From contig NZ_JACYVH010000008.1 in the NCBI RefSeq assembly GCF_014842255.1, positions 1 through 62,690 of the forward strand: 62,690 nt of DNA. The letters are read 5' to 3'. Each line of letters begins with the position of its first letter. Within the stretch, counting starts at the first letter, position 1. The DNA is from Frigoribacterium sp. CFBP 13712. Its GTDB lineage: Bacteria > Actinomycetota > Actinomycetes > Actinomycetales > Microbacteriaceae. The notes under the pieces are model-generated. The model saw nothing but the letters and a program-made list of their open reading frames with translations. It was not told the DNA's origin and ran no database searches. Of this stretch, positions 5,859-62,502 are shown piece by piece. The translations under genes and the position numbers were made by a program.

Positions 5859-6800
5859 CTACTCGAGTTCGGCGAGGTCGCTGTAGAGCGACGTGATCTG
5901 ACCGACCCGCGTCCGCCCCGCCCGCGGATGCTCGGCGAGCACAGCGGAGGCGAGCAGCGCCGCGAGACTCATCGCCGCGGCGTAGCTGTCGAACGGCGAC
6001 TCGCTGTCGACCGGGCACTCGAGCCGCAGCGCACCGGGGGCGCGGGCCGTCACGTCGCCGATCAGCACCACGGGCACGCCCTGCCGCCCGAGGGCGCTGA
6101 CGAGCCCCGCGAAACCGGCCGGTCGCCGACGGAACCCGACGAGCACCACGACGTCGCGCTCGCCCAGCCCGGCGAGCTCTTCGCCGACCGACTGCCCGGG
6201 CTGCGGCGCGAGACGCACGTCGTCGCGCGCCTGCACGAGCTGCTGCCGCAGGTGCGAGGCGACCGGGTAGCTGTTGCGGAACCCCGCGACGACCACCCGG
6301 CGGGCCCCGGCGATCAGCGTCGCCGCCCGCTCGAGCCGCCCGTCGGCGAGACCGTCGAGCATGCGCTGGAGGTTGCGGTGCTCCGCCGCCGCGTGACGCA
6401 CGAGATCCGAGGAGGCGCTGGCCGACCCGACCGGGACCCCTCGGCTCCGTGCGGCCCTCGCCTGATCGCGGACCTCCTGCGCGTCGGTGAACCCGAGGCG
6501 CCGGAACAGCCGCGACACCGTCGCCTTCGACACCCCGCTCTGCTCGGCGATCTCGGTCGCCGTGTAGACGGCGAGGTCGTCGAGGTGATCGAGGATGAAG
6601 TCCGCCGCACGCTGCTCGCTCGGGCTCAGCGCACCGTAGCCCGAGTCGATGCGGTCGCGGATGCCCTCGGGGGCCGGGTCGGGGGCCGGGTCGAGCGACG
6701 AACCGGGGGCCGGGTCGGGGGCCGGGTCGGGGGCCGGCGACCCGGGGGCGGTGGCGGCGGGGTCGACCCGACCCGCGCCTCCTGCGGGGGCGTCGCTCAT
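5859..6800 (-). CDS. RpiR family regulator (HTH plus SIS domain), probable purine-catabolism regulator
   Basis: 313 aa. After a 45-residue Ala/Pro/Asp-rich repeat tail, an RpiR helix-turn-helix runs through YTATEIAEQSGVSKATVSRL, followed by a SIS sugar/ligand-binding domain (from about residue 150). It is the last gene of a five-gene minus-strand operon with acetamidase, amidase, pucG and the M20 hydrolase, and its ATG overlaps the M20 stop (ATGA). By position it is the best candidate for binding the paired operators at 12523-12570, with a purine-pathway ureide as ligand. That role is inferred. Known relatives control sugar-phosphate, but also ureide, pathways. Confidence 0.88.
   Translation of the reverse strand: MSDAPAGGAGRVDPAATAPGSPAPDPAPDPAPGSSLDPAPDPAPEGIRDRIDSGYGALSPSEQRAADFILDHLDDLAVYTATEIAEQSGVSKATVSRLFRRLGFTDAQEVRDQARAARSRGVPVGSASASSDLVRHAAAEHRNLQRMLDGLADGRLERAATLIAGARRVVVAGFRNSYPVASHLRQQLVQARDDVRLAPQPGQSVGEELAGLGERDVVVLVGFRRRPAGFAGLVSALGRQGVPVVLIGDVTARAPGALRLECPVDSESPFDSYAAAMSLAALLASAVLAEHPRAGRTRVGQITSLYSDLAELE
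6668..6742 (-). repeat. In-frame 12-nt tandem repeat in the rpiR N-terminus
   Basis: Imperfect tandem copies of GGGGCCGGGTCG encode the DPAP repeats of the RpiR N-terminal tail. The segment precedes the DNA-binding domain and is probably disordered. A copy of the dispersed AGGAGGCGCGGGTCG repeat lies next to it at 6769-6783. Confidence 0.8.
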
Positions 6801-8095
6801 GCGGTCGTCTCGGCGGAGACGTGCCGGGCGGCGAGTTCGCGGACGGCAGCCTCGAACGCGTCGAGCGCGACGGCGACGTCGGCCGCGCTGACGGTCTCGT
6901 CGGGGTGGTGGCTGATGCCGCCGTTGCCGCAGCGGACGAAGAGCATGGCCCAGTCGGTCAGGGCGTCGATCGCCATGGCGTCGTGCCCGGCCTTCGAGAA
7001 CAGGGTCATCGGATCGGCGTCGCCGGTCGCGACGATGCCGGTGCGCACCGCGTCGGCGAGCGCCGCCGACGCGACGACGGCCGATGCCGAGTGGGTCTCG
7101 TGGGCGGCGAAGACGAGCCCGCGTTCGGCGCAGGTGCGGGCTGCGGCGGCCTCGATGGCGGCCCAGACCTCGTCGCGCCGGTCGTCGTGCTCGGCCCTCA
7201 GATCGAGGCTGAACTCGACGAGCCCGGGGATCACGTTGACCCCGCCGGGGAACGCCTCGAGACGCCCGACGGTGGCGATGCAGCCGGCGTCGCGGGCGAT
7301 GCGCTCGACGGCGAGCACGACCTCGCTCGCCCCGGCCAGGGCGTCGTGCCGCCGGTGGAAGGGCACACCGCCGGCGTGCCCGGCGACTCCCGTCATGGTC
7401 AGCTCGAACCGGCGCGCACCGGCGATCGACGACACGACGGCGAGCGCCCGGTCGGCCTCTTCGAGGTACGGACCCTGTTCGATGTGGGTCTCGAGATACC
7501 CGACGACGGAGCCCCGAGGAGGCGCGGCGTCGCCCACGGCCTCGGGGTCGAGCCCGAACGCGACGAACGCGTCGCGCAGGCTCACGCCCTCCGAGTCGAC
7601 GAGCTGCCACCACGCGTCGTCCCAGGTGCCGGCGACGGCGCGCGATCCGAGCAGGGCCGTGCCGAAGCGGGTGCCCTCCTCGTCGCCGAACGCCAGCACC
7701 TCGACGGCGAAGGGCAGCCGGATGCCGGCGGCGCTGAGACGCTCGACGACCGCGATCGCGAGCAGCACGCCGAGCATGCCGTCGTAGCGCCCCGCGTCGG
7801 GCACCGTGTCGAGGTGCGAGCCGAGCAGCAGGGCGGGCGCCCCGGGCTCCCGGCCCTCGTAGCGGCCCCGCTGGTTGCCGGCGGCGTCGAGCCAGGTCGT
7901 CATGCCCGCCTGCTCCATCCACCGACCGGCGAGCTCGTTGACCCGCGCGTGCTCGGGGCTGAGGTAGACGCGGGTGAGACCGGTGCTGCTCGACGACACG
8001 GCGGCGAGCACGTCGCAGCGCTCGAGCACCGTGCGCGCGTCGGCGGCGATGCCGGAGGCGCGGGGCTGGGGTGCGGAGGCCTCTTCGGGACTCAC
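6797..8095 (-). CDS. M20 family amidohydrolase, probable allantoate amidohydrolase
   Basis: 432 aa zinc-dependent hydrolase of the allantoate amidohydrolase/N-carbamoyl amino acid hydrolase group. Metal ligands and active-site motifs are visible: GSHLDTVPDAGRYDG, FGDEEGTRFG, ETHIEQGPYLEE, and the C-terminal GHDAM. Allantoate amidohydrolase gives ureidoglycine, which is the substrate of the PucG-like enzyme encoded just upstream, so this role fits the neighbours. Start GTG 8095 overlaps the pucG stop (GTGA) and has AGGAGG seven bases upstream; that Shine-Dalgarno is itself part of a dispersed-repeat copy. A ureidoglycolate or carbamoyl amino acid hydrolase cannot be excluded. Confidence 0.88.
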   Translation of the reverse strand: MSPEEASAPQPRASGIAADARTVLERCDVLAAVSSSSTGLTRVYLSPEHARVNELAGRWMEQAGMTTWLDAAGNQRGRYEGREPGAPALLLGSHLDTVPDAGRYDGMLGVLLAIAVVERLSAAGIRLPFAVEVLAFGDEEGTRFGTALLGSRAVAGTWDDAWWQLVDSEGVSLRDAFVAFGLDPEAVGDAAPPRGSVVGYLETHIEQGPYLEEADRALAVVSSIAGARRFELTMTGVAGHAGGVPFHRRHDALAGASEVVLAVERIARDAGCIATVGRLEAFPGGVNVIPGLVEFSLDLRAEHDDRRDEVWAAIEAAAARTCAERGLVFAAHETHSASAVVASAALADAVRTGIVATGDADPMTLFSKAGHDAMAIDALTDWAMLFVRCGNGGISHHPDETVSAADVAVALDAFEAAVRELAARHVSAETTA

Positions 8096-9545: not shown

Positions 9546-11300
9546 GCCCGGCCACGCCGCCGCGAGCCCGAGCAGCGCGAGGTCCGACCCCCGCGGCCCC
9601 ACGAAGCAGAGTCCGACCGGCGCCAGGCGTCGAGATGCCTCGAACGGCGCCCTCGACGGGCCCGACTGCCCCCGTTGCGTCACTTCGATGGGCCCGGCGA
9701 CGGGCACCTCGAGTCTCGGCGCCGAGACCGCGGGCGCGCCGAGCACCCCGGCCACGCAGGTCAGCCCGAGGGTCGCCGACCGCACCGCGTCGACCTCGGC
9801 CGCCGACGCACTGAGCGACGGTGCCGCCGACGACGCGCTCGGCAGCAGCAGCACCCGGTCGGCGAGGAGGGACTCGAGACGGCGACGCTCGTCGGCCAGG
9901 GCGACCCGCGCCTCCTCGGCACGCTGCGGCGACACCGTCGAGCCGAACGCGAAGCGCGCCGCGACGTCGGGGGCCAGGCACCCCGGGTGAGCGGTGATCC
10001 ACGCGCCGTTCGACTGCCACGCCTCGTACGCCTGCAGCACGCGGAACAGCTCGAACAGCTCGGCGACGTCACCGAGCGCGACGGACTCGGGGCGGGCGAT
10101 GCTCCCAGCCGACACGGCCTCGTCGATCGCCCGGGTGAAGGCCGACCGCACCTCGGGCGAGACCGCCGCGAGCAGCGAGGGGTCGACGACGTACGACGGG
10201 TCGACGCCGCGCTGATCGACACCCGGACGATCGACGGCGGGCAGCGTCACCGCAGCCGCCCGCAGCAGTGTGTCGGCGTCGCGCGCCAACCAGCCGACGG
10301 TGTCGAAGGTCGGGGCGAGCGGCAGCAGCCCCGTGCGGTCGACGGCTCCGTGCGTCGTGCGGAGACCCCAGAGCCCCTGGTACGAGGCCGGCACGCGCAA
10401 CGAACCGCCCGTGTCGGTGCCGAGACCGATGCTCGCCTGGCCGAGGGCGACGGCCGCGGCCGGTCCGCTGGTCGATCCGCCCGAGATCGCACCGGGCACC
10501 GCGGGGTTGGGCGGGGTGCCGTATGCGGAGTTGCGGCCGGCGACGCTGTACGCGAACTCGTCGGTCTGGGCGATGCCGGTCACCGACGCCCCCGCCTCGA
10601 GCAGGAGCCGCACCGCGGACGCGTGCTCCGTCTCGGGGGCGGCCTCGTCGAGGAACGCGGGCACGCCGGCGCCGATCGCCTGACCGGCGACGGCGAAGAG
10701 GTCCTTCACGGCGACGGTCTCGCCGACGAGCGACCGGTCGGGCGCACCGCCCCCCTGACCTTCAGGAGGCGCGGTGCTGGTCGCCCCGTCGTCTCGCCGA
10801 CCCGGCACGAGCGGCTCCCCCACCACGCGCCACACCCGTCGGTCCACGGCGGGCGCCGGCGCCTGGACCTGTGCCGACGCGATGCGCCAGGTGCCGCCGG
10901 CTGAGGCCCCTGCGTCGGCACCGGCGCCGGCACCGCGGCGCCAGAGCTGCGTGACGACCCCGCGCCCGCCGCCCGCCGGCGCGTTGACCGAGACGATCAG
11001 CGCGGTGTCGTCGTCGAGCACCCGAGCGTGCACCTCGACCACCCGACGCACCGGCCCCGAGCCCCGTCGACCACGGAACGCCGTGATCGCCTCGTGCCCG
11101 ACGAGGAGCCCGCCGGCGTCGGCGCGCAGCACGGTCGCGGTCGGCTCGAACGCGGCCGCGAGCGCCGCCTGGTCGTCGGCGGCGAGCGCACGCTCGTACG
11201 CGTCGAAGGCGGCGAGCAGCCCGTCGGGCAGCGACCCCTCGACCGAGGCGAGGGCCGTGACCGAGCCGACCCGCGCCTCCTCGGGGACGCCCTCAGCCAC
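9543..11300 (-). CDS. Amidase with N-terminal AtzH/HpxZ-like domain, candidate oxalurate hydrolase
   Basis: 585 aa fusion. Residues about 15-150 match the NTF2-like AtzH (DUF3225) domain, to which the oxalurate-pathway protein HpxZ belongs; residues about 175-585 are an amidase-signature hydrolase. The Ser-cisSer-Lys triad is visible in TVAVKDL, GGSTSGPAAA and GTDTGGSLRVPASY. In other bacteria HpxZ and the amidase HpxY are separate products of the hpx cluster. With pucG next door making oxalurate, hydrolysis of oxalurate or oxamate is a reasonable inference. GTG 11300 is chosen; it overlaps the acetamidase stop by 8 nt. Two copies of the dispersed 15-mer lie in this gene (9902 and 11267). Confidence 0.88.
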   Translation of the reverse strand: MAEGVPEEARVGSVTALASVEGSLPDGLLAAFDAYERALAADDQAALAAAFEPTATVLRADAGGLLVGHEAITAFRGRRGSGPVRRVVEVHARVLDDDTALIVSVNAPAGGGRGVVTQLWRRGAGAGADAGASAGGTWRIASAQVQAPAPAVDRRVWRVVGEPLVPGRRDDGATSTAPPEGQGGGAPDRSLVGETVAVKDLFAVAGQAIGAGVPAFLDEAAPETEHASAVRLLLEAGASVTGIAQTDEFAYSVAGRNSAYGTPPNPAVPGAISGGSTSGPAAAVALGQASIGLGTDTGGSLRVPASYQGLWGLRTTHGAVDRTGLLPLAPTFDTVGWLARDADTLLRAAAVTLPAVDRPGVDQRGVDPSYVVDPSLLAAVSPEVRSAFTRAIDEAVSAGSIARPESVALGDVAELFELFRVLQAYEAWQSNGAWITAHPGCLAPDVAARFAFGSTVSPQRAEEARVALADERRRLESLLADRVLLLPSASSAAPSLSASAAEVDAVRSATLGLTCVAGVLGAPAVSAPRLEVPVAGPIEVTQRGQSGPSRAPFEASRRLAPVGLCFVGPRGSDLALLGLAAAWPG

Positions 11301-15812: not shown

Positions 15813-18655
15813 GCAGAGACGACGAGGGCACCCGGGGCCGGCACGGCTCGACAGGGGTGCAGGGCATCACGAACAACGGCCGCCGGGTCGTCTTCGAGGT
15901 CGACGGCGACACGCTCGACACCCCCGTGGCGCCCGGGCAGGTGCTGCGGACGGTGCTGCGCGACGCCGGCGTCCATTCGGTGAAGAAGGGCTGCGACGCG
16001 GGCGACTGCGGCGCCTGCTCGGTGCTGGTCGACGGCGACCCCGTGCACTCGTGCGTGTATCCGGCCCACCGGCTGGACGGCCGGGCGGTCACGACCGCGG
16101 CCGGGCTCGGCACCCCCGACGCCCCGCACCCGATGCAGCAGGCGTTCGTCGACGCGGCCGGGTTCCAGTGCGGCTTCTGCACGGCGGGCATGGTCGTGAC
16201 GGCCTCGACGTTCACGGAGGCCGATCGGGATGATCTCCCGCGCCTCCTGAAGGGCAACATCTGCCGGTGCACGGGGTACCGGTCGATCCGCGACGCGATC
16301 TGCGGGGTCGGCAACACGGTCGCACCGGCGGTCGGCGAGGCGGCGGGCCGCTCGGTCAAGGCGCCCGCCGGGCTGCGCGTCGTGACGGGCCGCGAGGAGT
16401 TCACCCTCGACTCCCCCGCCCCCACGGCCCTGCTGCACATCGCCGTGCTCGGCAGCCCGCACCCGCACGCCCGCATCGTCGCGATCGACACCGCGGCGGC
16501 GCTCGCACTGCCGGGGGTGCACGCCGTGCTGACGCATCACGACTCGCCGGCCACCCTGTTCTCGACCGGTCGCCACGAAGACCGGGAAGACGACCCCGAC
16601 GACGGCCTCGTGCTCGACCCCGTGCTGAGGTTCCGCGGCCAGCGGGTCGCCGCGGTCGTCGCCGAGTCGCGGCGGCAGGCCGAGCTCGCCCGCGACGCGA
16701 TCGTCGTCGAGTACGAGCAGCTGCCCGCGGTCTTCGACCCGGAGGAGGCGCGGCTCCCCGGGGCCCCGCTGCTGCACGGCGAGAAGACCAGCGAGGTCTC
16801 GCGCATCGCGGTCCCCGAGCGCAACACCGTCGCGGCCATGCACGGCGAGACCGGCGACGTCGAGGCGGCGCTGGCCGCGGCCGACGCGACCGTCGAGGGC
16901 ACCTGGACGACGCAGCGGGTCAGCCACGGCTCGCTCGAGACGCACGCCACCCGCGGCTGGCTCGACGACGACGGGCGCCTCGTGCTCCGCACCTCGAGTC
17001 AGGTGCCGTTCCTGGTCCGCGACGAGATCGCCCACGTGTTCGGTCTGCCCGAAGACCGGGTCAGGGTCTTCACGAAGCGCGTCGGCGGCGGCTTCGGCGG
17101 CAAGCAGGAGCTGCTGACCGAAGACCTCGTCACGCTCGCCGTGCTGGCCACCGGCCACCCGGTGCAGTACGAGTTCACCCGCGACGACGAGTTCACGATC
17201 GCGCCGACGCGGCACCCGATGCGGGTGCGCGTGCGACTCGGCGCGACAGCCGACGGCACGCTCACCGCGCTGCACGTCGACCAGCTGATGGACACCGGCG
17301 CCTACGGCAACCACGGCGTCGGCGTCATGTACCACTCGGTGCACGAGTCGGTCGCGGTCTACCGCTGCGCCTCGAAGCGGGTCGACGCCGAGTCGGTGTA
17401 CACGAACAACCTGCCCTCGGGCGCGTTCCGCGGGTACGGCCTCGGGCAGGTGATCTTCGCCATCGAGTCCGCGATGGACGAGCTCGCGATCAGGCTCGGC
17501 ATCGACCCGTTCGAGCTGCGACGGAAGAACGTCGTCGTGCCGGGCGACGCAATGGTCGTCACCGATCCCGACGAGGAGACCGATCTGATCTGGGGCAGCT
17601 ACGGCCTCGACCAGTGCCTCGATCTCGTCGAGGAGGCGCTGGCCGGCCCCGACGCGCAGCCCGCCCCCGAAGGCCCCACCTGGTCGACCGGCACCGGCAT
17701 GGCCCTCGCCATGATCGCCACCATGCCGCCCCGAGGGCACTTCGCCGACACCACCGTCGAGCTGCGACCCGACGGCGGCTACGACATCGGAGTCGGCACG
17801 GCCGAGTTCGGCAACGGCACGACGACGGTGCACACCCAGCTGGTCGCGACGGCCCTTGGCACGACACCCGACCGGGTCTCCGTCCGCCAGTCGGACACCG
17901 ACGTCGCCCGGTACGACTCGGGGGCCTTCGGGTCGGCCGGCGTCGTCGTGGCGGGCAAGGCCCTCTGGGCCGCGGCGCACAAGCTGCGCGCCGCCATGAT
18001 CGACCGTGCGCTGACCCTCGCCGGAGGCGCGGCGGACGTGGTCGACGGCGGCACCGCCCCCGAGGTGGTGCCCGGCGGGGTCGTGGTGACCCGCGCCTCC
18101 TCGGCGGGGTCGGCTGGGTCGGCGGCCGGGCCGGCGGCGACCCGTCTCGTGACGGTCGACGAGCTCCTGGCCTACGGCCCGCTCGTGGCCGACGGCAGTC
18201 ACGACGGCACGCCCCGATCGGTGGCGTTCAACGTGCACGCGTTCAAGGTGGCCGTCGACCGGTCGACCGGCGAGGTGCGGATGCTGCGCTCGATCCAGGC
18301 GGCCGACGCCGGCACCGTGCTGAACCCCGAGCAGCTGCGCGGGCAGATCGAGGGCGGCACTGCCCAGGCGATCGGCACGGCCCTCTACGAGGAGATGATG
18401 CTCGACGGCGAGGGGCGGGTGCTGACGACGGCGCTGCGCAACTACCGGCTGCCGAAGTTCTCGGACGTCCCCGAGACCGAGGTGCACTTCGCGACCACCC
18501 ACGACGAGCTCGGCCCGCTCGGCGCGAAGAGCATGAGCGAGGCGCCGTACAACCCCGTCGCCCCGGCCCTCGCGAACGCGATCCGCGACGCGCTCGGGGT
18601 GCGGCCGCACGAGCTGCCCATGTCGCGCGACCGCCTCTGGCGCCTCGCCCGCTGA
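15809..18655 (+). CDS. Xanthine dehydrogenase, fused 2Fe-2S and molybdenum-binding subunit
   Basis: 948 aa. Residues about 20-170 form the two [2Fe-2S] domains (GCDAGDCGACSVLVDG, QCGFCTAGM, NICRCTGYRSI). Residues about 185-948 are the molybdopterin subunit, with GGGFGGKQE, AFRGYGLGQVIFAIES, and GAKSMSEAPYNP carrying the catalytic glutamate. It oxidises hypoxanthine/xanthine to urate. In many bacteria the Fe-S and Mo parts are separate genes; here they are one chain with FAD kept apart. A copy of the dispersed repeat (18088-18101) encodes TRASSAG in a Gly/Ala-rich insert near residue 765. Maturation proteins XdhC and MocA-like are encoded 31 kb away. Confidence 0.94.
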   Translation: MSRDDEGTRGRHGSTGVQGITNNGRRVVFEVDGDTLDTPVAPGQVLRTVLRDAGVHSVKKGCDAGDCGACSVLVDGDPVHSCVYPAHRLDGRAVTTAAGLGTPDAPHPMQQAFVDAAGFQCGFCTAGMVVTASTFTEADRDDLPRLLKGNICRCTGYRSIRDAICGVGNTVAPAVGEAAGRSVKAPAGLRVVTGREEFTLDSPAPTALLHIAVLGSPHPHARIVAIDTAAALALPGVHAVLTHHDSPATLFSTGRHEDREDDPDDGLVLDPVLRFRGQRVAAVVAESRRQAELARDAIVVEYEQLPAVFDPEEARLPGAPLLHGEKTSEVSRIAVPERNTVAAMHGETGDVEAALAAADATVEGTWTTQRVSHGSLETHATRGWLDDDGRLVLRTSSQVPFLVRDEIAHVFGLPEDRVRVFTKRVGGGFGGKQELLTEDLVTLAVLATGHPVQYEFTRDDEFTIAPTRHPMRVRVRLGATADGTLTALHVDQLMDTGAYGNHGVGVMYHSVHESVAVYRCASKRVDAESVYTNNLPSGAFRGYGLGQVIFAIESAMDELAIRLGIDPFELRRKNVVVPGDAMVVTDPDEETDLIWGSYGLDQCLDLVEEALAGPDAQPAPEGPTWSTGTGMALAMIATMPPRGHFADTTVELRPDGGYDIGVGTAEFGNGTTTVHTQLVATALGTTPDRVSVRQSDTDVARYDSGAFGSAGVVVAGKALWAAAHKLRAAMIDRALTLAGGAADVVDGGTAPEVVPGGVVVTRASSAGSAGSAAGPAATRLVTVDELLAYGPLVADGSHDGTPRSVAFNVHAFKVAVDRSTGEVRMLRSIQAADAGTVLNPEQLRGQIEGGTAQAIGTALYEEMMLDGEGRVLTTALRNYRLPKFSDVPETEVHFATTHDELGPLGAKSMSEAPYNPVAPALANAIRDALGVRPHELPMSRDRLWRLAR

Positions 18656-18739: not shown

Positions 18740-18758
18740 GAGGAGGCGCGGGTCGGCC

Positions 18759-19606: not shown

Positions 19607-21046
19607 ATGACCACCGATCCCCAGGCCCCCGGTCCGACCTCCGGGCCCGAATCCACGCCCGGAACCGCAGCCGACGCCGCAGTCGACACGGCGCCGGTCA
19701 GCCGCCGCTCGCTCGCGAAGGCGTTCACCGCCTCGCTGACCGGCACCTCCCTCGAGTGGTACGACTTCGCCGTCTACTCCGCCGCGTCGGCCGTCGTCTT
19801 CCCCGTCGTGTTCTTCCCGGCGAGCGACCCCTACACGGCGACCATCCTCGCGTTCTCGACCTACGCCGTCGGCTACGTCTCACGACCGGTCGGCGGGTTC
19901 GTGTTCGGTCGGCTCGGCGACAAGATCGGCCGGAAGCCCGTGCTCGTCACGACCCTGCTGATCATCGGCATCGCGACGTTCCTGATCGGCCTGCTGCCGA
20001 GCTACGCGACGATCGGGCTCGCAGCGCCCATCCTGCTCGTCCTGCTGCGCTTCGCCCAGGGCGTCGGCGTGGGCGGCGAGTGGGGCGGCGCGGTGCTGCT
20101 CTCGAGCGAGTTCGGGGATCCGAGGAGGCGCGGCTTCTGGTCGTCCGCCGCCCAGGTCGGTCCCCCGGCCGGCAACCTCCTCGCCAACGGCGCGCTCGCG
20201 GTGCTCACGGCCGTGCTCACCGAGGAGGCGTTCCTCGACTGGGGCTGGCGCGTCGCGTTCCTGGCGTCGGCGGTGCTCGTCGGCTTCGGCCTCTGGATCC
20301 GCCTCAAGCTGGAGGACACCCCGGTCTTCCAGGCTCTGGAGGCGCGGGGCGACGCCCCGGCCGCTCCCGTCCGCGAGGTGTTCACCACGCAGCTGCGCCC
20401 CCTGGTCGCCGCCATCCTCAGCCGCATCGGACCCGACGTCACCTACGCCCTCTTCACCGTCTTCACCTTGACCTACGGCACGGTCACCCTCGGTCTCGAG
20501 CGCAGCCAGGTGCTCGTCGCCGTGCTGATCGGCTCGGCGTTCCAGCTCGCCTGCATCCCCCTCGCCGGCGCGCTCTCCGATCGCATCAACCGTCGACTGC
20601 TCTACGCCGTCGCCGCCGTGGGTGCGGCGATCTGGGCCTACGTCTTCTTCGCCATCACCGACGGGTCGTCGACGGTCGTGCTGACCATCGGCATCGTGCT
20701 GGCCCTCGTCTTCCACTCGTTCATGTACGGACCGCAGGCGGCCTTCATCGTCGAGCAGTTCTCACCGCGACTGCGCTCGACGGGCAGCTCGCTGGCGTAC
20801 ACGATCGCCGGCGTCTTCGGCGGCGCGATCGCTCCGCTGATGTTCACCATCATCTTCGAGGAGACGGGCAGCGGGCTCGGTGTGGCGATCTACCTCACCG
20901 TGGCCGTCGCACTCACCCTCGTGGGGCTGGCGCTCGGTCGCGACTCGAACGTGCAGGAGGACGCCGACTACCTCGCCGACGCCCCGGCGACGGACGGGGT
21001 CGACGCGACCCGCGCCTCCTCGGGGACGTCGTCGTCGCGCGACTGA
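19607..21046 (+). CDS. MHS family MFS transporter
   Basis: 479 aa, 12-helix metabolite:H+ symporter (ShiA/KgtP/ProP-like). Signatures: GTSLEWYDFAVYSAAS in helix 1, FGRLGDKIGRKP in loop 2-3, RFAQGVGVGGEWGGAVLL in helix 4. It imports an organic acid, betaine or similar anion with protons. ATG 19607 starts a 30-residue hydrophilic tail; no strong ribosome-binding site is seen. A dispersed-repeat copy (21006-21020) encodes the C-terminal ATRASSG. Divergent DUF2848 protein, GntR regulator and nitrilase suggest one substrate for the module. Confidence 0.92.
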   Translation: MTTDPQAPGPTSGPESTPGTAADAAVDTAPVSRRSLAKAFTASLTGTSLEWYDFAVYSAASAVVFPVVFFPASDPYTATILAFSTYAVGYVSRPVGGFVFGRLGDKIGRKPVLVTTLLIIGIATFLIGLLPSYATIGLAAPILLVLLRFAQGVGVGGEWGGAVLLSSEFGDPRRRGFWSSAAQVGPPAGNLLANGALAVLTAVLTEEAFLDWGWRVAFLASAVLVGFGLWIRLKLEDTPVFQALEARGDAPAAPVREVFTTQLRPLVAAILSRIGPDVTYALFTVFTLTYGTVTLGLERSQVLVAVLIGSAFQLACIPLAGALSDRINRRLLYAVAAVGAAIWAYVFFAITDGSSTVVLTIGIVLALVFHSFMYGPQAAFIVEQFSPRLRSTGSSLAYTIAGVFGGAIAPLMFTIIFEETGSGLGVAIYLTVAVALTLVGLALGRDSNVQEDADYLADAPATDGVDATRASSGTSSSRD

Positions 21047-22651: not shown

Positions 22652-24694
22652 TCAGAGGCGGAGCGCCTCGTGCGGCTCGATGCGGCTCGCCCGCCAGGCC
22701 GCGACGAGCCCGCCCGCTGCCCCGACGATGACGCCGCCGATCAGCGCCGCGGGGGCGAGTCTCAGGTCGAACACGGGGATCCACTGCCGCGCGACGGTCA
22801 TGACGAGCACGGCTCCGAGCCCCAGGGCGAGACCGAGCAGCCCGCCGAGGGCGCCGATCACGACCGACTCGGCGAGCACGAGCCCGGCGATGTGACTCGG
22901 GCGGGCGCCGAGCGCCCGGCGCAGACCGAACTCCTTGCGGCGCTCGAGCACGGCGAGCACCATCGAGTTGCCGAGACCCGCCACGGCGGCGAGCAGAGCC
23001 ACCCCGGTGAAGGCGAGCAGGGTCGACTCGACGTCCGATTCGATCTCGGCGCGGAGGGTGGTCGGGTCGATCGGCGCGTCGACCCGGAACGTCTCGGCGG
23101 CGACGGGGTCGATGGCGAGCGGCGCCTGTCGGGCGACCTGCTGAGCCGCACCCGCACCGGTCCGGATCAGCACGGATGTCTGAGAGGGGGTCTCGACTCC
23201 TGGCAGGGAGTGCGCACCGGTCGTCACGGCTCCGACGAGGCTCGGCACGCGCGGCGACTCGTCGACGATGCCGACGACGGCGACCTCGGCGTCGCCCAGG
23301 GTGATGACGGGCGCCGCGGCGAGCGGACCGAGGGGCAGCTGGGCGGCGAGACTGCGGCCGATCAGCACCTCCCGGTCGCCGAGCGTCGGGCCGTGGCGGG
23401 CGAGCCACTCGACGTCGACGCGGGCGGCCGCGAGGAGGCTCCCCTCGATGCTCACGACCGGCGCCTGCAGGGCGTCGCGCACGGCGGTCGCCCGGACGAC
23501 GGCCGACCCGCGCTCGTGCAGCGCCCCGACCGACTCCACACCGCTGAGCTCCGCCACACGGGCGAGCCTGCCGGCCACATCGGCCGCGGCCTCGGGACTC
23601 CCGAACGGAGCGACGACCGCGCCCGCGCCGATCGCCCCCGGGGCCTCCCCCTCAGCCGTCGGATCGACCGGGGAGTCCCACGAGACGCCGACGTCGCGGT
23701 TGGTGTGCAGATCGAAGGTGTCGCCGACCTGGGCGCCGGCCGACACCGAGAGCCCGAGGCTGGCGACGGCGAGCGCCACCGCCACGGCGACGGCGACCAC
23801 GAGCCCCGCGGTCTTGCCGAGCCGCGACGTGACGGAGCGCACGGCGTCGTCCGCGAGGTCTCGGAACCGCAGGCGTGACGGGCGACCCGGTCTCTCGGGT
23901 CGGTGACCCGCGCCTCCTTCGCCTGTGGATCGGGGAGCCGAGGAGGCGCGGGTCGGCTCCGTGACGACCGTCGCGTCGGCAGGGCCTCCCGTCCCGAGCG
24001 CGGAGGCCACGGCGACCTCGTTCGTCGCGACCGACTCGATGCGCCCGTCGCGGAGGTGCGCCACCCGGTCGGCCGCGCGGGCGACGGTCGGGTCGTGCGT
24101 GACCAGCACGACCGTGGTGCCCTCGTCGCGGAGGGCGAGAAGGGTCTCGACGACCGAAGCGCCGTTCTCGGAGTCGAGGTTGCCGGTGGGTTCGTCGGCG
24201 ACGACGACGGGTGTGCCGGCGGCGAGGGCCCGAGCGATGGCCACGCGCTGCCGCTGCCCGCCGGAGAGCTTGGCGGCGAGCTGGTCGCCGAGCCCGTCGA
24301 GGCCCACCTGCTCGAGGGCTCGATCGGCGAGGATGCGGCGCCGGTCGGCAGGCACCGCGCGATACAGGAGGCCCAGTTCGACGCTGTCGCGGACCGGGCG
24401 GTGGTCGAGCAGATGGAAGCCCTGGAACACGAATCCGAAGGTCTCGGACCGCGTCTCGGCGAGCCGACGCGAGGTGGATCCGCCGATGTCGTCACCGGCG
24501 ATCGTGTACGTGCCCGTGGTGGGGTGGTCGAGCAGTCCGATGGTGTTGAGCAGTGTGGACTTGCCGCCGCCGGAGGGGCCCATGATGGCGAAGAACTCCC
24601 CCGCCTCGATGTCGAGGGTGACGCCGTCGAGGGCCGTGACCTCGACCGCTCCCGAGAACGTGCGTCCGACCCCGCGGAGCTGCAGCAGCGCCAT
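22652..24694 (-). CDS. MacB-like ABC protein, fused ATPase and FtsX-type permease
   Basis: 680 aa. Residues 1-225 are an ABC ATPase (Walker A GPSGGGKSTLLN, signature LSGGQRQRVAIARAL, Walker B VVVADEPTGNLDS). A linker of about 50 residues leads to one helix near residue 315, a large extracytoplasmic domain, and three C-terminal helices with GLRRALGARPSHIAG, the FtsX/MacB permease mark. Such proteins export peptides or act as mechanotransmitters at the envelope. Its ATG overlaps the stop of the adaptor gene (TGATG). It is the last gene of the I36/lipoprotein operon. Two dispersed-repeat copies in inverted order (23905-23955) encode part of the linker. Confidence 0.92.
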   Translation of the reverse strand: MALLQLRGVGRTFSGAVEVTALDGVTLDIEAGEFFAIMGPSGGGKSTLLNTIGLLDHPTTGTYTIAGDDIGGSTSRRLAETRSETFGFVFQGFHLLDHRPVRDSVELGLLYRAVPADRRRILADRALEQVGLDGLGDQLAAKLSGGQRQRVAIARALAAGTPVVVADEPTGNLDSENGASVVETLLALRDEGTTVVLVTHDPTVARAADRVAHLRDGRIESVATNEVAVASALGTGGPADATVVTEPTRASSAPRSTGEGGAGHRPERPGRPSRLRFRDLADDAVRSVTSRLGKTAGLVVAVAVAVALAVASLGLSVSAGAQVGDTFDLHTNRDVGVSWDSPVDPTAEGEAPGAIGAGAVVAPFGSPEAAADVAGRLARVAELSGVESVGALHERGSAVVRATAVRDALQAPVVSIEGSLLAAARVDVEWLARHGPTLGDREVLIGRSLAAQLPLGPLAAAPVITLGDAEVAVVGIVDESPRVPSLVGAVTTGAHSLPGVETPSQTSVLIRTGAGAAQQVARQAPLAIDPVAAETFRVDAPIDPTTLRAEIESDVESTLLAFTGVALLAAVAGLGNSMVLAVLERRKEFGLRRALGARPSHIAGLVLAESVVIGALGGLLGLALGLGAVLVMTVARQWIPVFDLRLAPAALIGGVIVGAAGGLVAAWRASRIEPHEALRL
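23905..23955. repeat. Inverted pair of the dispersed AGGAGGCGCGGGTC repeat inside the ABC gene
   Basis: Copies at 23905-23918 (minus) and 23941-23955 (plus) face each other across 22 bp, forming a potential 14-bp hairpin within the linker coding region. Other exact 15-mer copies (AGGAGGCGCGGGTCG) are at 6769, 9902, 11267, 21006, 38046, 46155, 50451 and 60737 on the minus strand, and at 18741, 50567, 53829, 55997 and 62412 on the plus strand. Confidence 0.85.
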
Positions 24695-36703: not shown

Positions 36704-38212
36704 TCAGGAGGCGCGCGACGGCACCCGGGGCAGGTATCTGACGGGAGCGGACGACGCCGAGACCAGGGCCCGCAGCGCCTCGAGCGACGACGACGGGTCG
36801 ACGATGCCGACCGCGCGGGCCTGCACGAGGATGTTCCCGAGCGCGGTGGCCTCGACCGGCCCGGCGAGCACGGTGCAGCCCGTCCGGTCGGCCGTGAGCT
36901 GGCAGAGCAGCGCGTTCTGCGACCCGCCGCCGACGACGTGCACGGTCCGGATGCGGCGGCCCGAGAGGCGTTCGGCGTCGCGCAGGGTCTCGGCGTAGGC
37001 GGCGGCCAGCGACTCGAGGATGCTGCGCACCACCTCGGCCCTCCCCCGCGGCGGCTCGACGTCGTGCTCGACGCACCAGGCCCCGATGCGCGCGGGCATG
37101 TCGCCGGGCGGCGCGAAGCGCTGGTCGGTGGCGTCGAAGACCGGGACCGCGCGGGTGACGTCGGCCGCCTCGGCGAGCAGGGCGGCGAGGTCGCTGCTGC
37201 GCTCGGCGGCCGTGGCCCCCGCGCCGTCCCAGGTGCGCATCGACTCGCTCAGCAGCCACAGCCCCGACACGTTCTTCAGGAACCGGGTGCGGCCGTCGAC
37301 CCCGCCCTCGTTGGTGAACCCCGCGAGGCGCGCCTCGTCGGTGACGAGGGGTGCGGGGAGCTCGAGCCCGACGAGCGACCAGGTGCCGCTCGAGACGTAG
37401 GCCGCGTCGTCGCCGGCGAGCGGCACGCCGACCACGGCCGAGGCGGTGTCGTGCGACCCGACGGCCGTGACCCCGAGCGACGTCGGCGCCCCGATCGCCG
37501 AGGCGACCGACGGCAGCAGCGGGCCGAGGGCGGCACCGGGTTCGACGAGCGGGGCGAAGAGATCGAGGGGGACGCCGACGCGGTTCATCAGATCGACGTC
37601 GAAGGCCCGCTCGACGGGCGACAGCAGCCCGGTGGTCGACGCGTTGGTCGACTCGGTCGCCGCCACCCCGGTCAGCCACCACGAGAAGAGGTCGGGCACG
37701 AGCAGGGCGCGGTCGGCGAGGGCCAGGGTTCCGGAGGCGCGATCGGCCGCCAGCTGGAACACCGTGTTGAACGGCAGATGCTGCAGCCCCGCCCGCGTGA
37801 ACAGCTCACGGGGCGACACCGCGGCGTGCACCGCCTCGACCCCCGCCGCGGTGCGCCCGTCGCGGTAGTGGTACGGCGCACCGAGCAGCCGGCCGTCGCG
37901 GAGCAGCGCGTAGTCGACCGCCCACGAGTCGACCCCGATCGACCGCAGCCCCGGCTCGTCGCGCACGGCGGCGGCCAGCCCCGCGGTGACGGACCGCCAG
38001 AGCCCGAGGACGTCCCAGTGCAGACCGACACCGTGCAGACCGAGACGACCCGCGCCTCCTTCGGGGACGGTCACGGGGTCGTTCGCGAATCGGGCCACCG
38101 GACGCAGCCGGACCCCGTCGCGGTCGACCCGGCCGAGCATGACCCGACCGCTCGTGGCGCCGAGGTCGACCGCGGCGACCGTGCCGCCGCCCATCGGGGA
38201 TCTGGTCGTCAT
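36704..38212 (-). CDS. rhaB: Rhamnulokinase
   Basis: 502 aa FGGY kinase that phosphorylates L-rhamnulose to L-rhamnulose 1-phosphate. ATP-grasp hexokinase-fold motifs: [58 protein letters not shown]. Its place 7 bp after rhaD and before lldD sets the substrate. A dispersed-repeat copy (38046-38060) encodes EGGAGRLG in a variable loop near residue 52. The final residues (SRAS) lie in another shortened copy. Confidence 0.95.
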
Positions 38213-45394: not shown

Positions 45395-46950
45395 CGGCGG
45401 GTCTCCGTCGTCGTGGTGGTGTGCGCGGGCTCGGCGCCGGTGGCGGCGTTGATGACCGTCTCGGGAGTGGCGTCGTCGCGGTCGAAGGTGGCCGTGAGCC
45501 GCCCCTCGCGCATGACGAGCACGCGGTCGGCCATGCCCAGCACCTCCGGCAGCTCGGACGAGATCATCAGCACCGCGATGCCGCGACCGGCGAGATCGCT
45601 GATCAGCCGGTGCACCTCGCTCTTCGTGCCGACGTCGATGCCGCGCGTCGGCTCGTCGACGATGAGGAACGTCGGGTCGGTCGCCAGCCACTTGGCCAGC
45701 ACCACCTTCTGCTGGTTGCCGCCCGAGAGGGTCGACACGGGGAGCTCCTGGCTGCCGGTCTTGACCTGCAGTCGCCGCGACCAGTCGGCCGCCGCCTCGC
45801 GCTCGCGCCGCGCGCTGACCAGCCCGAGACGACTGAGCGTCGTCCGGAGGGTGAGCGTCGTGTTGCGGCTGACCGACATGTCCATCACGAGACCCTGCTT
45901 GCGGCGGTCTTCGGGGACGAAGCCGATGCCCGCCCTGATCGACGCCATCGGATCGCGCGGCGCGAGCCTGCGGCCGCCGATCGTCACGGAGCCGGCGTCG
46001 TAGCGGTCGATGCCGAACAGCGCCCGCGCCACCTCGGTGCGACCCGCCCCGACGAGACCGGCGAGCCCGACGATCTCGCCGGCGCTCACCTCGAACGACA
46101 CGTCGTGGAAGACGCCCGCCCGGGTCAGCCCGTCGACGCGGACGACGGTGTCGCCGACCCGCGCCTCCTGCTTGGGGAACAGCTGGTCGACGTCGCGACC
46201 GACCATCGCCCGCACGATCTCGGGCGTGCTGACCTCGCTGGTCGTGTGCTCGGAGATGAAGGCGCCGTCGCGCATGACGGTGATGCGGTCGCTGAGCCCG
46301 AAGACCTCGTCGAACCGGTGCGAGATGAACATGATCGCGCTGCCGCGGTCGCGCAGCGCCCGGGCGACCCCGAAGAGGCGCTCGACCTCGACGCCGCTCA
46401 AAGCCGCCGTCGGCTCGTCCATGATGAGCACCTTGGCGTCGAGCGAGATGGCCTTGGCGATCTCGATGATCTGCTGATCGGCGATCGACAGGCCCTCGGC
46501 GACGCGGTCGGGGTCGATCGGCACACCGAGCCGGTCGAAGAGCGCCCGGGCGTCGGCGCGCATCGCGGCCCGGTCGATGAACCCGAGACGGGTGGTGGGC
46601 TGACGCCCGACGAAGATGTTCTCGGCGACGGTCAGATCGGGGAAGAGAGTCGGCTCTTGATAGATGACGCTGACACCCGCCGCCTTGCTCTCGGCCGGGC
46701 TGCGGAACACGATCGGGTGGCCGTCGAACAGGAAGTCGCCGCTGTCGGGCTGGTGCACCCCCGCGAGGATCTTCACCATGGTCGACTTGCCGGCGCCGTT
46801 CTCGCCCACGAGCGCGTTGATCTCGCCGGCACGCAGCCGCACGCTGCCGCTCGAGAGGGCCACGACGGCGCCGAAGGTCTTGCGTGCGCCGCGCAGCTCG
46901 AGCACGGTCGCCGTCGGAGACGGCCCGTCGGATGTGGGGTCGATCGTCAT
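45391..46950 (-). CDS. rhaT: Rhamnose ABC transporter ATP-binding protein
   Basis: 519 aa double ABC ATPase of the RbsA/MglA type. First domain: Walker A GENGAGKSTMVK, signature GLSIADQQIIEIAKA, Walker B VLIMDEPTAALS. Second domain: degenerate Walker A GLVGAGRTEVAR, signature LSGGNQQKVVLAKWL, FLIVDEPTRGID. First gene of the importer operon, 37 bp from the LacI-type operator. A dispersed-repeat copy (46155-46169) encodes QEARVGD between the two domains. Confidence 0.95.
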   Translation of the reverse strand: MTIDPTSDGPSPTATVLELRGARKTFGAVVALSSGSVRLRAGEINALVGENGAGKSTMVKILAGVHQPDSGDFLFDGHPIVFRSPAESKAAGVSVIYQEPTLFPDLTVAENIFVGRQPTTRLGFIDRAAMRADARALFDRLGVPIDPDRVAEGLSIADQQIIEIAKAISLDAKVLIMDEPTAALSGVEVERLFGVARALRDRGSAIMFISHRFDEVFGLSDRITVMRDGAFISEHTTSEVSTPEIVRAMVGRDVDQLFPKQEARVGDTVVRVDGLTRAGVFHDVSFEVSAGEIVGLAGLVGAGRTEVARALFGIDRYDAGSVTIGGRRLAPRDPMASIRAGIGFVPEDRRKQGLVMDMSVSRNTTLTLRTTLSRLGLVSARREREAAADWSRRLQVKTGSQELPVSTLSGGNQQKVVLAKWLATDPTFLIVDEPTRGIDVGTKSEVHRLISDLAGRGIAVLMISSELPEVLGMADRVLVMREGRLTATFDRDDATPETVINAATGAEPAHTTTTTETRR

Positions 46951-50244: not shown

Positions 50245-50925
50245 ATGGCTCGCGCACGACCCGGCCCGATCGTGGGGCTCCTGCTCGCGGCGGGCGCGGG
50301 GTCCCGCATGGGTGGCCCGAAGGCGCTCGTCGCCGACGCACGCGGACCCTGGCTGACTCGGGGCGTGGCGACCCTGCTCGCCGGCGGGTGCGACCGCGTC
50401 GTCGTCGTACTCGGCGCGGGCGCGACCGAGGCGGAGGATCTTCTGGCGGGCGACCCGCGCCTCCTCGGCTCGCCGGTCTCGACCGTCGTCGCCGACGACT
50501 GGGCCGACGGGCTCGCGGCGTCGCTGCGGGCGGGGCTCCGTGCGCTCGGCGCCGACCCGGACCTGCAGGAGGCGCGGGTCGCCCTCATCACGCTGGTCGA
50601 CTACCCGGGGCTGCCCGCGTCCGCCGTGGCGCGCCTCCTGTCTGTCACCGGGACGCCCGCCGGTGCCGGGTCGCCGGCGGCCGCCGGGGTGCCGCTCGGG
50701 GCCGGGTCGCCGCTCGGGGCGAGCACTCTCAGGCGTGCCGTGTTCGGCGGACGGCCGGGGCATCCGGTGGTCGTCGGGCGGGCCCACTGGTCGGACCTCG
50801 CCCGGTCGATCTCGGGCGATCGGGGGGCCGGCGCGTACCTGCGCGAGCACGGCGCTCTCGAGGTGGACTGCCGCGACCTCTGGAGCGGTCACGACGTCGA
50901 CTCCCCGCGTGCCGCATCGAGGTGA
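50245..50925 (+). CDS. MocA/MobA-like nucleotidyltransferase
   Basis: 226 aa. Signature LLLAAGAGSRMGGPKALV at residues 11-28 is that of molybdenum cofactor cytidylyl/guanylyltransferases, and GHPVVVGRAHW fits the MocA branch. It should make the molybdopterin dinucleotide form for xanthine dehydrogenase. ATG 50245 lacks a Shine-Dalgarno; a GTG at 50239 is possible. Two dispersed-repeat copies in opposite orientation (50451 and 50567) encode GDPRLLGS and QEARVA in loop regions. Its stop lies inside a palindromic repeat. Confidence 0.85.
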   Translation: MARARPGPIVGLLLAAGAGSRMGGPKALVADARGPWLTRGVATLLAGGCDRVVVVLGAGATEAEDLLAGDPRLLGSPVSTVVADDWADGLAASLRAGLRALGADPDLQEARVALITLVDYPGLPASAVARLLSVTGTPAGAGSPAAAGVPLGAGSPLGASTLRRAVFGGRPGHPVVVGRAHWSDLARSISGDRGAGAYLREHGALEVDCRDLWSGHDVDSPRAASR

Positions 50926-53810: not shown

Positions 53811-53843
53811 AGGAGGCGCGGGGAGCCGAGGAGGCGCGGGTCG
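53811..53843 (+). repeat. Direct pair of the dispersed repeat before the ribokinase stop
   Basis: GCCGAGGAGGCGCGGGGA (53811 core) and GCCGAGGAGGCGCGGGTCG (53829 core) are tandem, 18 nt apart, ending 7 bp from the ribokinase stop codon at 53850. Confidence 0.85.
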
Positions 53844-55994: not shown

Positions 55995-56621
55995 CTAGGA
56001 GGCGCGGGTCGGCTCGATCACGGCCAGCGCGATCACCGCGGCCCGGCCGGTGAGCTGCACCGCACCTCCTGAGGGGATGACGACCGCGTCGTGCAAGGCC
56101 AGCGCGCCGTGAGCCGGCGACGAGACGTCTCCCTCGACGACCACCGCCACCGTCCAGGACGAAGGCGAGGCGGGCGAGCCGGGCGAGCCGGGCGAGCGGA
56201 GCGTCAGCTCGCCGTCGAGGTGCCGCGCGACGAGCGTGCCGGCGGCCGAACCTCGCCCCGTCATCAGGTTGAGGTCGAGGCCCGTCCCCCGCACGTCGAC
56301 GGCCTCGACGGCCGACTCGCCCGCGAAGGGGAGCACGTCGAACGCCTCGCCGCGCACCCGCCGCCCGTCGATCACGAGATCGAGACCGGCGGGTGACAGG
56401 GGCATCAGCAGGCGATCGACTCCGGCGAACTCCGAGAACGGGGCCGAACGGTCGATCGTCGCGATGCTGATCCGCCAGGCCGGCTCGGTCGCAGGTCCGC
56501 CCTCTGCGGGCGGGCCCTCGGCTACGACGGTCGTCGTCCCGGCCCCGTTCCGCCACGGTACGACGTCCCGGGCCGACGCCCGCAGCACAGACGGCTCGCC
56601 GGCAGCCCCCTCGCTCCCCAT
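55995..56621 (-). CDS. hutD: HutD family protein
   Basis: 208 aa bicupin-like protein. Motifs VVPWRNGAGTTTVVAEG, RISIATIDRSAPFSEFAGVDR and LNLMTGRG are those of HutD, which accompanies histidine-utilisation genes and is thought to limit urocanate or formylated intermediates. ATG 56621 overlaps the hutI stop (TGATG). The last four residues and stop (TRAS) are encoded by a dispersed-repeat copy (55997-56011). Confidence 0.92.
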   Translation of the reverse strand: MGSEGAAGEPSVLRASARDVVPWRNGAGTTTVVAEGPPAEGGPATEPAWRISIATIDRSAPFSEFAGVDRLLMPLSPAGLDLVIDGRRVRGEAFDVLPFAGESAVEAVDVRGTGLDLNLMTGRGSAAGTLVARHLDGELTLRSPGSPGSPASPSSWTVAVVVEGDVSSPAHGALALHDAVVIPSGGAVQLTGRAAVIALAVIEPTRAS

Positions 56622-60647: not shown

Positions 60648-62502
60648 CGACGGTGCCCTCGGCGGTGTCGCCCGCGAAGCTCTCGGTCGCAGCGCTCTCG
60701 GTCGCGGGTTTCTCGCCGGCGGCATCCTCGGAGACCCGACCCGCGCCTCCTCGGCTGCCGCGGTGCTCCTGCATCGGCACGCGCACGCCGCGCTCGGCGG
60801 CGACGTCGATCGCGATCTCGTAGCCGGCATCCGCGTGGCGGATGACGCCCATGCCGGGGTCGGCGACGAGCACGCGGCCGAGCTTCTCGGCGGCGAGATC
60901 GGTGCCGTCGGCGACGATCACCTGACCGGCGTGGATCGATCGGCCCATGCCGACGCCTCCGCCCTGGTGGATCGACACCCAGGTGGCTCCCGACGCGACG
61001 TTGACCATCGCGTTCAGCAGCGGCCAGTCGGCGATGGCGTCCGAGCCGTCGAGCATGGCCTCCGTCTCGCGGTACGGCGACGCGACCGAGCCGGAGTCGA
61101 GGTGGTCGCGACCGATCACGATCGGCGCCGACAGCTCGCCCGACGCGACCATCTCGTTGAACTTCAGCCCGGCGAGGTGACGCTCGCCGTAGCCGAGCCA
61201 GCAGATGCGCGCCGGCAGCCCCTGGAACGCGACGCGCTCGCCCGCCATGGTGATCCACTTCTTCAGCGACTCGTTCTCGGGGAACAGCTCGAGGATCGCC
61301 TTGTCGGTCGCCGCGATGTCGGCGGGGTCGCCCGAGAGCGCCGCCCAGCGGAACGGGCCCTTGCCCTCGGCGAACAGCGGGCGGATGTAGGCAGGCACGA
61401 AGCCGGGGAACGCGAAGGCGCGGTCGTAGCCGGCCGTGCGGGCCTCGCCGCGGATGCTGTTGCCGTAGTCGAAGACGACCGCCCCGGCGTCCTGGAACCC
61501 GACCATCGCCTCGACATGGGCGCGCATGGCGGCCTGCGAGCGGCGGGTGAAGTCGGCGGGATCGGCCGCGGCCTCGGCGGCCATGTCCTCGAAGCGGGTG
61601 CCGATCGGCAGGTACGACAGGGGGTCGTGCGCCGAGGTCTGGTCGGTGACGATGTCGATCGGGGCCTTGCGGGCCAGCAGCTCGGGCACCATCTCGGCGG
61701 CGTTCCCGACGACGCCGATCGAGAGGGGGCGCTTCTCGTCACGGGCGGCGATCGCCAGCTCGAGCGCCTCGTCGAGGCTCGACGCGGCGACGTCGAGGTA
61801 TCGGTGCTCGACCCGGCGGTCGATGCGCGTGCGGTCGACGTCGATGCAGATCGCGACGCCGTCGTTCATCGTCACGGCCAGCGGCTGCGCGCCTCCCATG
61901 CCCCCGACGCCCGCGGTCAGCGTGATCGTGCCGGCCAGGGTGCCGCCGAAGTCGGCGTTCGCGACCGCCGAGAACGTCTCGTAGGTGCCCTGGAGGATGC
62001 CCTGCGTGCCGATGTAGATCCACGAGCCGGCCGTCATCTGGCCGTACATCATCAGGCCCATGGCATCGAGCTTGCGGAAGTCCTCCCAGTTGGCCCAGTC
62101 GCCCACCAGGTTCGAGTTCGCGATCAGCACGCGCGGCGACCACTCGTTCGTGCGGAACACGCCGACCGGCTTGCCCGACTGCACGAGCATCGTCTCGTCG
62201 TCCTTCAGGGTCTTCAGCGTCTCGACCATCGCGTCGAACGCCTCCCAGCTGCGGGCGGCCTTGCCCGTGCCGCCGTAGACGACGAGGTCGTCGGGGTGCT
62301 CGGCGACCTCGGGGTCGAGGTTGTTCATCAGCATGCGCAGCGCGGCCTCCTGCTGCCAGCCGAGGCAGCTGAGCTCGGTGCCGCGCGGGGCGCGGACCGG
62401 GCGGGGCCCCGAGGAGGCGCGGGTCGCGTCGGCGGCGCCGGTCGCGTCGGTGCCGGTGGTGGAGGAGGCGGTGGTGCCGGTGGTCTCGGTGTCGAGGGTC
62501 AC
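60631..62502 (-). CDS. hutU: Urocanate hydratase
   Basis: 623 aa. It adds water to urocanate using tightly bound NAD+ as electrophile. Motifs: [29 protein letters not shown] with the active-site Cys, and [15 protein letters not shown]. Both ends carry extra Thr/Ala-rich tails about 35 and 45 residues long, each coded through a dispersed-repeat copy (62412 and 60737). Start GTG 62502 is uncertain because the N-terminal tail is not conserved. HutH (histidine ammonia-lyase) is not in the window. Confidence 0.95.

Follow-up and report, generated by a model that had tools for sequence, protein, structure and literature searches.

A hyperabundant, selected DNA word in Frigoribacterium as a candidate uptake-type mark of self-DNA

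A 15-bp word, AGGAGGCGCGGGTCG, recurs in 14 exact copies within a 62,690-nucleotide stretch of contig 8 of the Frigoribacterium sp. CFBP 13712 genome (G000; the whole stretch is referred to here as the window). Its inner core of 10 bp, GGAGGCGCGG, of which the 15-mer represents the long form, is hyperabundant, symmetrical between the two strands, spread over the sampled genome, kept by selection on the word and represented by different dialects in sister species. We give an even chance to the reading that the 15-mer belongs to a genome-wide recognition word behaving like DNA uptake sequences, i.e., a self-DNA watermark. An earlier note on this DNA had described the dispersed 15-mer; that observation is real and stronger than first described, and the 10-bp core, the dialects, and the likeness to uptake sequences go beyond it.

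A 10-bp core and its 15-bp long form

The source genome comprises 3,155,852 bases in 40 contigs. A 462-kb sample of it was made up of the window and bases 1 to 400000 of contig 1. Expected counts were derived from an order-4 Markov model, with the word read in reverse order (not complemented) as a second control, and chance occurrence in the window was assessed by 100 shuffles preserving dinucleotides. All 14 exact copies listed in the earlier note are present at their positions and strands, and the shuffles yielded none (0 in 100), consistently with its estimate of less than one copy by composition. The exact 15-mer was found 50 times in the 462-kb sample versus 0.035 expected, and 362 times genome-wide (171 forward, 191 reverse), a count far above expectation, with 0 copies of the reversed word. 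Nor are the copies confined to the region first described: among the matches listed, 100 places lie on contigs 1 and 2. The core amounts to 1562 copies in G000 (761/801 by strand) versus 76 for the reversed-word control, or one per 2 kb, and to 196 copies in the sample versus 8.1 expected (101 and 95 by strand). The form AGGAGGCGCG of the core occurs 44 times in the window, in keeping with the tens of shorter forms reported before. Such a very large genome-wide excess of a short word is also a property of DNA uptake sequences (DUS) and uptake signal sequences (USS).

The boundaries of the word are narrow. All 45 single-base variants of the 15-mer, when pooled, amounted to 41 copies in 462 kb, 20 of which varied at the two end positions. 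The 15-mer is preceded by CCG and followed by a weak nCT, with little preference further away, and the preferred flanks of GGAGGCGCGG are CCGA- and -GTCG; no conserved unit extends past about 20 bp around the 15-mer. By direct reading GGAGGCGCGG is not a palindrome, unlike words of the highly iterated palindrome 1 (HIP1) type.

Exact 15-mers numbered 64 to 319 in each of the other 15 genomes of the genus set (16 genomes with G000). Among 24 genomes drawn from other genera in the same family and order, 5 carried any, at 1 to 3 copies each. Two genomes low in exact 15-mers are still rich in the core (1378 versus 148 for the control in G003, and 936 versus 106 in G007). Frigoribacterium faeni NBRC 103066, the closest named relative by the urocanase gene (91% identity; next named relatives, 83% or less), carries 9 cores and 0 reversed-word controls in a 17-kb locus. 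A virus-borne word was considered and rejected, since no more than 6 viral contigs in the collection carried the 18-mer form. Among the matches listed in the openly licensed literature, none dealt with this word or with uptake sequences in Microbacteriaceae. Separately, a further repeated word around AAGAGCATCTTC / CGAGTGGTCAGAAGA was seen at about 4 to 10 copies per 17 to 63 kb, depending on the word, in the F. faeni locus (L009), two G005 loci (L128 and L129), and the window.

Selection acts on the DNA word itself

A 282-kb portion of G000 was aligned to G002, its closest relative, which shares its dialect (86 to 89% identity where aligned), and to G003, which has another dialect (81%). The word was kept above controls at orthologous sites of both genomes. 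Coding cores were identical in 61 of 73 cases in G002 and in 27 of 63 in G003, the corresponding fractions for composition-matched control 10-mers being 0.203 and 0.120; for intergenic cores, the figures were 18/28 (control, 0.149) and 7/14 (control, 0.053), respectively. Four-fold silent sites within the core were unchanged in 185 of 196 cases (94%) versus G002 and in 111 of 128 versus G003, compared with 25663/37705 (0.681) and 18269/27991 (0.653) elsewhere. Silent flank bases matching the G000 consensus were unchanged in 76 of 83 cases in G002, whose dialect is shared, and in 44 of 57 cases (p 0.07) in G003, whose dialect is another; those off the consensus stood at background (21/31 and 16/26). 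Because silent core sites and consensus flank bases are unchanged above background, it is the DNA word that is kept and not the peptide alone. Selection thus acts on the word itself, with its outer letters clearly kept only under the same dialect. This bears out, in its general form, the proposal of a genome-wide site for a DNA-binding protein.

The surroundings of the word are less constrained. Coding flanks of cores were less conserved than other coding sequence (0.851 versus 0.879 in G002, 0.786 versus 0.830 in G003), so that, as with DUS and USS, the word is more conserved than its flanks and the flanks lie in permissive regions. Among 29 exact 15-mers aligned to G002, 22 were identical, 6 had one substitution, 1 had two, and none was gapped (6 unaligned), and gaps at cores were limited to 1/73 coding and 3/28 intergenic. 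Versus G003, 17 exact 15-mers aligned, of which 2 were identical, 8 substituted, and 7 gapped (18 unaligned); for the six window 15-mers compared with G005, 3 were identical and 3 gapped. Inspection of the alignments at the window sites revealed no clean insertion of the word into otherwise matching sequence.

Copies in the window and their placement

Gene calls are those of a codon model built in this analysis rather than curated annotation. The copies of the long form in the window, together with two 14-mers (AGGAGGCGCGGGTC) that the earlier note had also reported, are as follows.

6769..6783, minus: exact 15-mer in a predicted RpiR-type regulator gene (5859-6800), close to its start
9902..9916, minus: exact 15-mer in a predicted amidase/AtzH-like gene (9543-11300)
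11267..11281, minus: exact 15-mer near the start of the same predicted amidase/AtzH-like gene (9543-11300)
18088..18101, minus: 14-mer in a predicted gene (15857-18655), core at 18092
18741..18755, plus: exact 15-mer between convergent predicted genes 15857-18655(+) and 18759-19442(-)
21006..21020, minus: exact 15-mer in a predicted gene, 19607-21046(+), close to its 3' end
23905..23918, minus: 14-mer, inverted partner of the 23941 copy, core at 23909
23941..23955, plus: exact 15-mer in a predicted ABC transporter gene (22652-24694)
38046..38060, minus: exact 15-mer in a predicted FGGY-type carbohydrate kinase gene (36704-38194)
46155..46169, minus: exact 15-mer in a predicted gene (45391-46950), with one substitution in G002
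50451..50465, minus: exact 15-mer in a predicted MobA-like gene, 50272-50925(+); G002 keeps the copy, with changed flanks
50567..50581, plus: exact 15-mer in the same MobA-like gene, 50272-50925(+), on the opposite strand to the 50451 copy
53829..53843, plus: exact 15-mer, intergenic, with a direct partner core at 53811
55997..56011, plus: exact 15-mer at the extreme 3' end of a predicted HutD gene, 55995-56621(-)
60737..60751, minus: exact 15-mer in the urocanase gene, 60631-62502(-), close to its 3' end
62412..62426, plus: exact 15-mer in the urocanase gene, 60631-62502(-), close to its 5' end

The copy at 9902..9916 is identical in G002, G005, G006, G004, G013, and G015 despite differing surrounding bases, and a related form of the core occupies the 50567..50581 site in G003 and G006. 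No Rfam match at gathering level was obtained at the window copies. The single match in the window lies elsewhere and corresponds to a Guanidine-II riboswitch (RF01068, 39.4 bits; 2442-2488, plus strand) directly before a predicted gene (2500-3690).

Of the 14 exact copies in the window, 12 fall within predicted genes, the remaining 2 being intergenic. In the 462-kb sample, 28 of 50 exact 15-mers were coding and 22 intergenic, with an intergenic share of the sequence of only about 10%. Use of both strands was confirmed; the accompanying claim that any reading frame is tolerated was not, as the 28 coding copies use only two of the three codon phases. These coding 15-mers crowd at gene ends (16/28 in the outermost tenth at either end of the gene), a trend that is weaker for cores overall (36/125). 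Predicted genes contained 125 of the 196 cores, 69 were intergenic, and 2 straddled an edge. Intergenic cores were enriched between convergent genes (21/69) and poor between divergent ones (5/69). The sample contained 16 adjacent core pairs within 80 bp. Hairpins of -46 to -59 kcal/mol (RNA model, flanks included) are predicted for five inverted pairs (at 26 to 28 bases), of which four are intergenic and one is in a gene. Core spacing was slightly more even than random (coefficient of variation, 0.89; 0.81 without near pairs).

Orientation relative to replication, a further check suggested earlier, was addressed in G007, a complete chromosome sampled in 25 stretches of 20 kb, in which the origin was not located. 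The 9-base inner word occurred 121 and 121 times by strand when summed, with both strands represented in 24 of 25 stretches. This absence of strand or replication polarity is shared with DUS and USS and differs from the polar orientation of Chi or of FtsK-orienting polar sequences (KOPS).

On contig 1 of G007, no exact 15-mer was found over about 410 kb (1.81-2.22 Mb, loci L195-L198) among the matches listed (50/64, in order); cores are present there, few in two of the four samples. On contig 1 of G015, a single-contig Frigoribacterium genome, a block of ~430 kb (about 2.06-2.49 Mb, L190-L193) had no forward-strand 15-mers among the matches listed. Its GC content was 0.67 to 0.71 in four samples, and 80 kb sampled contained 4 cores and 15 copies of a hyperabundant word of its own, CATGCGCGGCA, versus at most 0.3 expected; one sample carried a DNA polymerase III alpha gene. 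The G015 block may be a large segment of foreign or plasmid origin that carries the word of another genus.

Other repeats also occur in the window. A REP/MITE-like element of ~120 nt (after repetitive extragenic palindromic sequences and miniature inverted-repeat transposable elements), centered on the palindrome GGGTCAGCGCTGACC with inverted arms, has five mostly intergenic copies (35225-35344, 48140-48259, 48304-48423, 48973-49092, and 53669-53788). Positions 51591-52009 comprise four head-to-tail copies of about 90 to 120 nt with a common stretch near ATCGAAGTGACGCGAACGG, which is also found at 50907 and 51564.

Flank preferences and words across the family

The letters around the core differ among Frigoribacterium genomes. 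G000, G002, and G005 prefer CCGA 5' of the core and GTCG 3' of it; G004, G013, and G015 prefer CA immediately 5' of the core; G003 and G006 favor no letter at that position. G003 and G007, both low in exact 15-mers, are rich in the core but have other flank preferences. AGGAGGCGCGGTGCG was tried as a second 15-mer dialect of the low-copy genomes and discarded, as it occurs in 16 to 19 copies in the five low-copy genomes, 23 in G012, and 38 to 67 in the other ten.

Within a family set of 120 genomes from about 85 genera, a clear excess of the core was restricted to three genera, Frigoribacterium (3/3), g47 (688 and 673 copies), and g70 (399); the few remaining genomes with any excess had under 20 copies each. 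The 9 cores seen in g47 were mostly accompanied by GGCCT, and CTGGAGGCGCG occurred there 9 times in 98 kb versus 0.1 expected. An unbiased word search in 20-kb pieces of 20 other genera returned words of a similar kind in many of them (CGGATGCCGC, GGATGCCC, CGGATGCTC, GGATGCCTCG, and CGAGTGCCGCC) and nothing clear in others. The family word CGGATGCCG was abundant in many members of the Microbacteriaceae outside Frigoribacterium and reached 2929 (control, 109) and 2536 (control, 72) copies among the 120 genomes, an excess partly overstated by the reversed-word control, such that ratios under about 5 are weak. It was not enriched in the three Frigoribacterium genomes sampled (counts/controls of 156/101 in G000, 121/133 in G003, and 150/121 in G007). 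In 1.56 Mb from 79 named loci, mostly of Streptomyces, CGGATGCCG occurred 198 times versus 37 for the reversed word and 98 by the Markov model. Collectively, these sequence comparisons suggest a family habit of such words, with a switched word in Frigoribacterium.

Predicted filament and DNA channel

ComEC was found in all 40 genomes tested. In G000, the gene upstream of comEC encodes SLBB and HHH_3 domains and corresponds to comEA. The one strong T2SSE ATPase match in this genome is TadA-type and lies within a tad-like cluster, which also encodes a T2SSF protein, an 80-aa DUF4244 protein, and a TadE/G-like protein, with a TadE match below the curated cut-off. The comEA-comEC genes and the tad-like cluster would supply the DNA channel and type IV filament that accompany DUS and USS. 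Transformation of the actinobacterium Micrococcus luteus needs tad genes and comEC, according to passages in PMC4322843 and PMC6370729, the former also describing other type IV pilus genes as lacking in this species. G000 is thus predicted to possess a filament and a channel of the kind known for DNA uptake in an actinobacterium. PilM occurs in 13 of the 16 genus genomes, the exceptions being G000, G002, and G005.

Discussion

The reading to which we give an even chance involves several steps, all conditional. The word would be recognized on either strand by a sequence-specific DNA-binding protein, and this reader would belong to a DNA uptake machine composed of a Tad/Flp pilus and ComEA/ComEC. 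Fragments carrying the word would be taken up preferentially, and their recombination would maintain and spread it. Known uptake codes belong to the Pasteurellaceae and Neisseriaceae, both Gram-negative, as stated in a passage of PMC1939737. We advance only tentatively, at somewhat less than an even chance, the wider proposal that Microbacteriaceae possess uptake-sequence dialects, with forms of CGGATGCCG in many genera and a switch to (CCGA)GGAGGCGCGG(GTCG) in Frigoribacterium. These dialects would be read by Tad/Flp competence pili, would be kept even in a clade devoid of the type IVa pilus, and would constitute the first uptake code for self-DNA from Gram-positive (monoderm) bacteria.

Several findings weigh against an uptake signal. 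Any genome-wide binding protein with selected sites would yield most of these signals. Strong matches to PilB/PilT-like ATPases were absent from G000, G002, and G005, as was PilM; this clade nevertheless has high counts and strong conservation of the word, which rules out a type IVa pilus as its reader in these genomes. Because tad and com genes are widespread (ComEC in 40/40 genomes, T2SSE in 41/41), their presence carries little weight. The link between PilM and CGGATGCCG abundance over the 120 family genomes is weak: the median CGGATGCCG ratio was 6.6 with and 2.7 without PilM in the whole set (p 7e-5), and 7.0 (n=56) versus 3.1 (n=39) in the 95 larger genomes (p 0.011), both without kinship correction, and 11 genomes without PilM had ratios of 8 or more. 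Gaps at coding cores in G003 (17/63) exceeded those at control words (2344/19518). Parts of G000 unaligned to G002 and G003 were not core-poor (0.580 versus 0.441 and 0.410 cores per kb), although much of this lies opposite DNA of the relatives outside the compared sample.

The main rival, which we regard as unlikely but serious, is a site for a chromosome-organizing, nucleoid, or other intracellular genome-wide DNA-binding protein, placed at intervals of ~2 kb in either orientation. Such a protein would fit the symmetry between strands, the spread, the selection acting on the word, and the defined footprint of 15 to 20 bp, as well as the retention of the word in the clade devoid of type IVa pili. 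To our knowledge, however, proteins of this kind are not known to have long sites in such numbers. Nor is an organizer needed to explain why the word is depleted between divergent genes and enriched toward gene ends, and a change of dialect inside one genus would probably be unusual for it. A polar word of the Chi or KOPS type, guiding a recombination or segregation motor, would account for a G-rich, asymmetric, hyperabundant, and genus-specific word. The 64 exact 15-mers of G007 are split 40 to 24, a mild imbalance not mapped to the chromosome arms. The lack of strand polarity across the 25 G007 stretches (origin not located), together with the 15-bp long form and the inverted pairs, makes this option very improbable; it was set aside on strand symmetry. 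Repair or methylation bias of the HIP1 type has the precedent of a hyperabundant word with alternate words in some genomes, as passages of PMC4390886 describe for cyanobacteria. HIP words are palindromic and tied to methyltransferases, whereas the Frigoribacterium word is non-palindromic, and we consider such an origin quite improbable.

The strong hairpins of some inverted pairs next to gene ends and the enrichment between convergent genes would suit a transcription-termination or RNA signal. This is nonetheless a slim prospect, given copies that are mostly single, on both strands, and in genes (125/196 coding; 16 adjacent pairs within 80 bp), and devoid of gathering-level Rfam matches in the window. 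A small repeat spread by transposition (REP or MITE type), the counterpart of the non-autonomous repeat envisaged in the earlier note, is also highly improbable. The dispersed, partly intergenic copies and their inverted pairs are compatible with mobility, and gaps are common versus distant relatives (7/17 15-mers and 17/63 coding cores in G003; 3/6 in G005). However, the REP-type Y1 transposase (PF01797) was absent from 16/16 genus genomes (other transposase families were not searched), no unit is conserved past about 20 bp, the closest relative, G002, showed gaps at 0/29 exact 15-mers and 1/73 coding cores, and no clean insertion was seen at the window sites inspected. We judged a mobile repeat unlikely because of the missing Y1 transposase, the decay of the flanks, and the lack of gaps at the 29 15-mers aligned to G002.

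If the word is indeed an uptake signal, self-marking of DNA would have arisen again in actinobacteria, with a different pilus. This would explain a selected word at about a thousand or more copies per genus genome counted, and would offer a tractable set of dialects, one of them switched, in which word and receptor could be followed together. Even with another reader protein, a 10-bp word selected at some 1500 places of G000 is unexplained and easily tested.

Comparison with known systems

The word resembles REP sequences with their REP-associated tyrosine transposases (RAYTs) in being dispersed, often intergenic, and in part paired. It differs from them in that the genus has no Y1 transposase, the G002-aligned 15-mers show no gaps, and the cores lie mostly in genes. 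Pasteurellaceae USS, like the Frigoribacterium word, consist of a hyperabundant core with weaker flanking positions; the Frigoribacterium word differs from them in sequence, host, and pilus type, and its role in uptake is conjectural. Cyanobacterial HIP1 is likewise a hyperabundant word replaced by alternate words in some genomes, according to passages of PMC4390886, and the Frigoribacterium word shares with it the swap for other words in some relatives. HIP1 is, unlike this word, a palindromic octamer tied to methyltransferases. The DUS of Neisseriaceae is a 10-mer with about 900 to 5900 copies per genome, and related species have different dialects, one of them by an inserted base (passages of PMC3630211). 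Parts of PMC2397512 describe DUS as near-completely conserved in more permissive surroundings, with less-conserved flanks around both DUS and USS and with USS in permissive regions of Haemophilus influenzae. The Frigoribacterium word differs from DUS in its high-GC actinobacterial host and its sequence, and since its own clade is without type IVa pili, no ComP-type receptor is expected for its putative uptake. It matches DUS in its 10-bp core, high copy number, dialects, and retention amid less conserved flanks. Among known kinds, the word would thus appear to work most like an uptake sequence, by likeness of behavior rather than by membership of the class.

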